DNA from: Gammaproteobacteria bacterium
GTDB taxonomy: Bacteria; Pseudomonadota; Gammaproteobacteria; Arenicellales; UBA868
DNA: 64,000 bases
Assembly (NCBI GenBank): GCA_022450155.1
Contig: JAKUQR010000011.1
Location: 1 to 64,000, forward strand
Direction of reading: 5' to 3'
The notes under the pieces are model-generated. The model saw only the letters and a program-made list of their open reading frames with translations, did not search any database and was not told the DNA's origin. A program made the translations under genes and the position numbers. Positions within the stretch are counted from its first letter, which is position 1. Every line of letters starts with the position of its first letter. Below are positions 54,845-55,060 of this stretch, piece by piece.

Positions 54845-54872
54845 AACAAAAGACGCCCACCGAAGTGGGCGC
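54845..54872 (-). terminator. Intrinsic terminator of the 24-codon unit
   Basis: On the minus strand GCGCCCAC, a stable TTCG loop and GTGGGCGT are followed by CTTTTGTT. This is a classic intrinsic terminator. A further hairpin, CCAGTGA with a six-base loop and TCACTGG at 54887-54906, lies between it and the ORF stop. Confidence 0.88.
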
Positions 54873-54920
54873 CGTGATTGGTCATCCCAGTGAACACTAT
54901 CACTGGATAGGGTGCTGTTC

Positions 54921-54995
54921 TTAGCTCAGGAGGTTGCTCTTAAGTTCCGATAAAACACCAAAGTCCACTGGGAATATACGCATATCACTAGACAT
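54921..54995 (-). CDS. 24-residue peptide with near-perfect Shine-Dalgarno
   Basis: An ATG at 54995 opens 24 codons ending in TAA at 54921. The Shine-Dalgarno AAGGAGGTGATCA (54997-55009) is complementary to nearly the whole anti-SD end of 16S rRNA, with 7 bases between GGAGG and ATG. The peptide starts MSSDMRIFPVDFG and ends in a leucine-rich, weakly basic tail; it has no Cys or Trp. A promoter, a 3' hairpin and a terminator flank it, so it is an independent transcript of about 180 nt. I know no matching family. It could be a modified-peptide precursor, a regulatory peptide or the coding part of a dual-function RNA. Confidence 0.6.
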   Translation of the reverse strand: MSSDMRIFPVDFGVLSELKSNLLS

Positions 54996-55031
54996 GTGAT
55001 CACCTCCTTCTAAGTTGTTCGTCGGGCCTCA

Positions 55032-55060
55032 AGTGTAGAGCGAACCTGGCACTGTGGCAA
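55032..55060 (-). promoter_or_regulatory. Sigma-70-type promoter of the 24-codon unit
   Basis: On the minus strand TTGCCA (-35) is separated by exactly 17 bases from TACACT (-10). This places a start about 28 bases before the Shine-Dalgarno site, in line with the short transcript proposed. Matches are 5 of 6 and 4 of 6 to consensus. Confidence 0.6.

Follow-up and report, generated by a model that had tools for sequence, protein, structure and literature searches.

The unit examined here lies on the minus strand of a 64,000-nucleotide stretch of DNA (the window), and it raises the question of what is selected in it: a very short peptide, a structured RNA or the act of translation. It consists of TTGCCA-17-TACACT (55060-55032), AAGGAGGTGATC, an AUG at 54995, 24 codons, a TAA, hairpins and a TTCG terminator. 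An earlier note, made from the letters alone, had taken it for a stand-alone unit that could give a modified-peptide precursor, a signalling or regulatory peptide, or a dual-function small RNA. The promoter, Shine-Dalgarno sequence (SD), 24-codon ORF, hairpins and terminator are all present at the minus-strand position claimed for them (Table 1), and the SD described as near-perfect and ideally spaced does show 12 nt of complementarity to the 16S tail at 7 nt from the AUG. The "second hairpin" of that description, CCAGTGA/TCACTGG, is not part of the conserved fold, whose pairings are CUAUC/GAUAG (CUGUC/GACAG in relatives) and an arm of UUCACUGGG with CCCAGUGGA inside the ORF. The unit occurs once in its own genome, as a genome search showed, a plasmid search with it gave no match, and the predicted transcript folds with z = -3.9. 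A consensus scan of a 2-kb region gave two promoter-like matches against 1.4 expected and three terminator-like matches against 1.5, which is chance level, so that consensus matches by themselves prove little and conservation decides. The view that chance assembly of these parts is unlikely thus holds through their conservation in relatives, and not through the promoter and terminator consensus counts.

Table 1. Features of the unit in the window (minus strand) and the basis on which each was placed
Feature	Position	Strand	Basis or remark
-35 element TTGCCA	55055..55060	-	promoter scan; TTG invariant in 6 related loci
-10 element TACACT	55032..55037	-	promoter scan; invariant in 6 related loci
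Predicted transcript, ~180 nt	54846..55025	-	start inferred from -10 position; covariance-model match 54846-55011
SD AAGGAGGTGATC	54998..55009	-	complementary to 12 nt of the 16S 3' tail (GAUCACCUCCUU); 7 nt from AUG
24-codon ORF MSSDMRIFPVDFGVLSELKSNLLS, stop TAA	54921..54995	-	homologues, ORF-length control, pN/pS
Closing helix P1, 5' strand GUGAU	54984..54988	-	starts at the eighth nucleotide from the A of AUG
Closing helix P1, 3' strand AUCAC	54874..54878	-	immediately 5' of the terminator
Helix 2, 5' strand	54963..54974	-	within ORF; covariation
Helix 2, 3' strand	54884..54895	-	3' of ORF; covariation
Helix 3, 5' strand GGUGUU	54954..54959	-	within ORF
Helix 3, 3' strand	54911..54916	-	partner of the GGUGUU strand
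Helix 4 hairpin, ORF end	54926..54943	-	holds GAGCAACCUCCU: 16S-tail-like, can pair with SD
Helix 5 hairpin CUAUC-CAGU-GAUAG	54897..54910	-	CUGUC/GACAG in relatives
Intrinsic terminator, TTCG loop (hairpin 54873-54852) and T-run	54845..54873	-	scan; also in relatives

DNA and peptide searches recovered the unit from five other genomes of the same family, and across the six genomes no change is seen in the TTG of the -35 element, in the TACACT of the -10 element, in AUGUCUAGUGAU and UUUGGUGU, or over most of the SD and of the 3' half; the 3' non-coding half is better conserved than the peptide. Of 109 genomes of the order, 19 contain the pattern of an SD followed by AUGUCUAGUGA, and one of the 19 belongs to a different family. 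Conservation in relatives, which the earlier note had proposed to look for, was borne out further by a covariance model of the window's subtype, trained on 17 window-type sequences: it matches in 32 of the 109 genomes, from four families and nearly always in one copy, and it also matches in Alphaproteobacteria. With a looser start pattern a scan of the collection returned at least 80 loci, and among the matches listed nearly all are alphaproteobacterial, two being labelled Gammaproteobacteria (L105, Woeseiaceae, and L126). Two further loci, L054 and L055, have a perfect SD, an 11-codon ORF (MSNGCIEVLTG and MSDGCIEVLTG) and an adjoining terminator; they match the Rfam family RF01867 weakly, and L054 is also weakly matched by R1, a model described below. 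They were excluded from the counts and may be a further subtype.

The surroundings of the unit vary. In the window its neighbours are an acetamidase/formamidase gene (convergent), Lin0512, Meth_synt_2 and others; no fixed neighbour or target gene was found, the neighbours differing between genera and classes. Most members of one genus (g4) carry an acyl-CoA synthetase-like gene, named from its sequence, 69-79 nt upstream. In L037, L039 and L041-L047 (g4), as in L075, a Roseococcus MAG, the element follows the end of a synthetase-like gene of its own strand by 60-79 nt; the L075 synthetase differs from that of g4, which leaves either coincidence or shared origin. Being conserved, single-copy and variable in its neighbours, the unit is a stand-alone functional one, as had been supposed, and we take it to be a real, conserved, stand-alone small RNA of Alphaproteobacteria and probably Gammaproteobacteria.

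The RNA fold shows covariation. In the window-type alignment 94.9% of cells are paired and two-sided changes occur in 13 of 37 pairs; in shuffles 6.6 pairs change on both sides and none of 500 shuffles reaches 13, while sliding the structure along the sequences drops pairing to 34-51%. The closing helix, which begins just after the start codon and ends at the terminator, has been rewritten with compensation from clade to clade (CAUUGUC:GACAAUG, CAUGGUU:GACCAUG, GUGAU:AUCAC, GUGAGA:UCUCAC, AUGAG:CUCAU, CGUGGGAU:AUCUCACG), and families f7 and f8 have yet another one (GTATT:AATAC, GTGTT:AACAC) together with ORFs of 18 or 23 codons. Its own strands pair over 5 bp in 90 of 91 elements, a figure inflated by construction, complementarity close to the terminator having been the criterion by which the strands were located; cross-combinations of strands from elements with different 5' strands pair in 70 of 5964 cases. 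Of the three products first proposed, the dual-function small RNA comes nearest: its RNA-level side is borne out by covariation and by model searches, function itself being deduced from conservation, and its other half, a functional peptide, is the part that did not stand.

The plan of the element recalls that of the Caulobacter RNA CC2171, which was reportedly first described by Landt et al. in 2008. The two have in common a CAAC-rich leader, a 16S-tail SD, an AUG/GUG-UCU start, a closing helix, interior arms and a terminator in the same order, and the RF01867 consensus, GAAAGGAGGUGAUCCAGUGUCUCAUUGUC...GaCaAUGGA, has this plan with a different closing helix. The window's closing helix, interior arms and ORF sequence are unlike those of CC2171. 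At the gathering threshold no Rfam family matches the window, and the window element has no match to RF01867 up to E = 10 (the gathering cut-off is 75 bits, and its relatives score below it); since it fails RF01867, it is named here CC2171-like and not a member by Rfam's rule. The link is made by intermediates. RF01867 matches over the full length, on the right strand and in SD-to-terminator register, were obtained for L050 (44 bits), L014 (28.6), L027 (23) and L015 (21.7), and the intermediates L050, L014, L105, L126 and L110 give full-length matches at 28.6-44 bits and are matched by R1 as well. Whole-genome searches with RF01867 returned exactly this element in G043 (L014), G274, G199, G474 (L105), G475 (L126) and G476 (L110), with E-values of 7e-4 to 7e-7, the range into which the L050 match also falls (whole-genome search or cmscan). 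R1, which was built only from window-type sequences and whose E-values are rough, finds L014 (7.5e-10), L110 (4.7e-9), L131, L117, L084, L126, L050 and L105, and matches the intermediates and Rhizobium and Phyllobacterium loci at E-values of 1e-10 to 1e-4. By these sequence comparisons the window element is a distant, below-threshold relative of CC2171, tied to it through intermediates that both models find.

The CC2171 gathering score is passed by seven of 18 tested loci, the seven being alphaproteobacterial and brought in by the same motif, and by none of 274 genomes of the window's class. This last result, together with a one-piece tmRNA (234 bits) and no alpha-type tmRNA in the window's genome, makes the host probably gammaproteobacterial, and the family probably reaches beyond Alphaproteobacteria into Gammaproteobacteria. 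The tmRNA type was used for taxonomy because the 16S sequences of related MAGs (about 76-80% to named records) are probably mis-binned, and these were left out. In the literature searched, CC2171 appears only in the Rfam 15 paper, where one covarying pair was added to it, and in a Mesorhizobium survey (PMC5596092), which gives an RF01867 locus of Mesorhizobium huakuii as the predicted sRNA MH_s33. According to a 2018 paper, CrfA is the sole characterised one of the 27 ncRNAs of 2008 (PMC5988900); Schrader et al. report most Caulobacter ncRNAs as untranslated, which counts against the ribosome-gated reading given below, but two earlier ones as translated (PMC4117421).

The remarkable part of the unit is its SD, which pairs with the 16S tail at -23.1 kcal/mol. 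The 74 window ORFs of at least 150 aa have a median of -6.1 and reach -15.5 at best, and the longest exact tail match at the first starts of those ORFs is 6 nt, compared with 12 nt in the unit. Across the family the SD is complementary to 12-18 nt of the tail (dG -23 to -30 kcal/mol) and the start is AUG/GUG-UCU. In L078, L073, L100 and other Alphaproteobacteria the complementarity extends over 15-18 nt and, beyond GGAUC, enters helix 45 at its base. In sequence the 16S 3' tail is near-universal; in a related genome it ends in ...GGCTGGATCACCTCCTTTCTAAGG, on a contig that is possibly mis-binned.

The ORF in turn holds sequence resembling the tail itself (GGAUCACCUCCUU): GGAGCANCCUYY in the window-like groups and CUGGAUC..(C)CUCC in the CC2171-like group. 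Codons 13-19 of L100, L145, L150, L112, L142 and L103 read CUGGAUC and then CCUCC, and so nearly reproduce the 16S 3' tail; the Trp codon present in 27 of 35 peptides may be a by-product of such an RNA motif. Across 35 family elements the SD pairs with the interior more strongly than in shuffles (p = 3.5e-5). It is the CC2171-like group that gives rise to this signal, which lacks significance in the window's own group, and in predicted SD accessibility the elements and their shuffles are not different (p = 0.11); both points count against the two-state switch proposed below. As a general rule, sequestration of the SD was rejected, because it is seen for the family taken together and, among the groups, for the CC2171-like one but not the window's.

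The length of the ORF is controlled as well. In all 97 complete elements it has 18-26 codons, and TAA, TAG and TGA are all in use as its stop; frame +1 has a length within that range in 11 of the 97 and frame +2 in 20. The count leaves aside L077, which ends inside the ORF, and L091, which ends just after it, both at the locus boundary, and two Azospirillum loci with 57-59 codons, L114 and L148, which as failures would make it 97 of 99. These two loci have the same SD and ATGTCTCATGG start, followed by a 57-59 codon ORF resembling a signal peptide; they are chance matches or else elements that have become genes. Translation of the ORF is thus supported by its SD, its start codon and a fixed length with changing stops.

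Whether the peptide matters is another question. A small functional peptide, be it signalling, regulatory or a modified precursor, translated from a structured mRNA would account for the conserved SD, start codon and ORF length, and 57-63% amino-acid identity within the family could be read in its favour. In-frame pN/pS is nevertheless near 1 (0.66-1.28 in six groupings) and not clearly below that of the wrong frames, although the counts behind it are small and not independent of one another and RNA constraint acting at synonymous sites confounds them; and the conserved motif near codon 19, GGRGCANCC, at the end of the ORF, keeps nearly the same place while falling in three different reading frames across the family; on these two grounds the peptide reading is not supported. 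The idea of a signalling peptide gets no support from them, nor does that of a modified precursor, in view of the same pN/pS and of the absence of a maturation gene or constant neighbour and of any cross-clade residue beyond M-S. No maturation gene is adjacent in the window, as had been stated, or recurs beside the unit in its relatives; examined as a RiPP precursor it shows no adjacent or conserved maturation enzyme and no conservation of core or leader residues, and the peptide has no Pfam match. Some room for weak peptide constraint is left by the pN/pS of the window's group (0.66-0.88) and by the trio (D/N/S)-(F/V)-G at codons 11-13, which that group shares in frame with the alphaproteobacterial L115 and L131. 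These two loci also have the GACUUUGG of window positions 54965-54957 (Asp-Phe-Gly in frame), which may belong to a junction in the RNA or be what is left of a constraint on the peptide. On balance a functional peptide is quite unlikely: the start and stop are selected and the amino acids at most weakly, and, as the peptide is not conserved, what appears to count is that the ORF is translated, not which peptide results.

Other explanations take the RNA as the product. The unit could be an ordinary trans-acting base-pairing sRNA whose SD, start and short ORF only draw ribosomes that shield it from RNases or make it decay more slowly, no switch being involved; it is stand-alone, structured and terminated, it has variable neighbours and its relatives are filed as sRNA. 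That account, possible if on the whole unlikely, leaves unexplained why the ORF keeps to 18-26 codons and why the closing helix always starts right after AUG-UCU, and no conserved unpaired seed was identified. An SD complementary to 12-18 nt of the tail, far above ordinary SDs, would also suit a ribosome decoy that titrates free 30S subunits and so lowers general initiation under some condition; we consider this very unlikely, because it would need a very high copy number of the RNA and a pure decoy has no need of a controlled ORF length and a stop codon. A leader or attenuator acting in cis on the gene downstream would have a similar short ORF, hairpins and terminator, and three genomes of genus g6 do have a same-strand gene about 240 nt downstream. 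Yet the next gene is convergent in the window and in several relatives, downstream genes vary by genus and class, and no conserved downstream target gene was found; this candidate was rejected on context and is extremely improbable.

The reading that we prefer, at about even odds (roughly 0.5), is a ribosome-gated, structured small RNA of about 180 nt in which ribosome loading, and not the peptide, is conserved, and where initiation is incompatible with a formed closing helix. Comparison across the family shows selection for ribosome loading and for an ORF-containing domain closed by a helix. A 30S subunit bound at an AUG covers about 15 nt downstream, hence initiation and the closing helix should exclude each other: the subunit at the start codon would cover the 5' strand of the helix and prevent the closed fold. 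Each translating ribosome would then open the domain, which would refold once the ribosome leaves, so that the RNA would alternate between two forms, open when loaded with a ribosome and closed when free of one, and in one of the two it might act in trans, by base-pairing or by holding 30S subunits. In the closed form the SD may be contested by the motif resembling the 16S tail that lies at the end of the ORF. In a bolder version the RNA would sense 30S subunits that are free and competent for initiation: the 16S 3' tail would be the ligand, contending on the full-length SD with the ORF-internal tail mimic, and occupancy, read by translating a dummy ORF of fixed length, would turn a conserved RNA domain on or off in two proteobacterial classes. 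This version is unlikely.

The family has been known only as an uncharacterised "non-coding" Caulobacter sRNA, and it now appears wide in Alphaproteobacteria and to reach a second, probably gammaproteobacterial, lineage; it carries a ribosome-binding site spanning the 16S tail and a length-controlled ORF of unselected sequence. Several known systems bear comparison. A sub-threshold match to isrB (RF01386; 24.3 bits against a gathering score of 35) over the window's terminator half was set aside as chance, the agreement being mostly the terminator hairpin and the match absent from the other relatives tested. Similarly to trp-type leader-peptide attenuators, the unit joins a short ORF, a structured RNA and an intrinsic terminator at its end, but it has no conserved downstream operon or regulatory codon run and stands alone in unrelated contexts. 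SgrS/SgrT is a short terminated RNA with a translated small ORF, and to our knowledge no SD spanning the 16S tail occurs in rnTrpL, Spot 42 or SgrS. Both rnTrpL and Spot 42 are described or cited as dual-function sRNAs in PMC10117765. The window family resembles rnTrpL/peTrpL, Spot 42/SpfP and SgrS/SgrT in being a short RNA with a terminator and a small ORF, here predicted to be translated; Ribo-seq evidence alone would be insufficient to name such ORFs small proteins. The peptides of those three systems have a function of their own, whereas in the window family selection on the peptide is not detectable, and if translation rather than the peptide is indeed the function, the family would be a clear natural example of a ribosome-gated small RNA.
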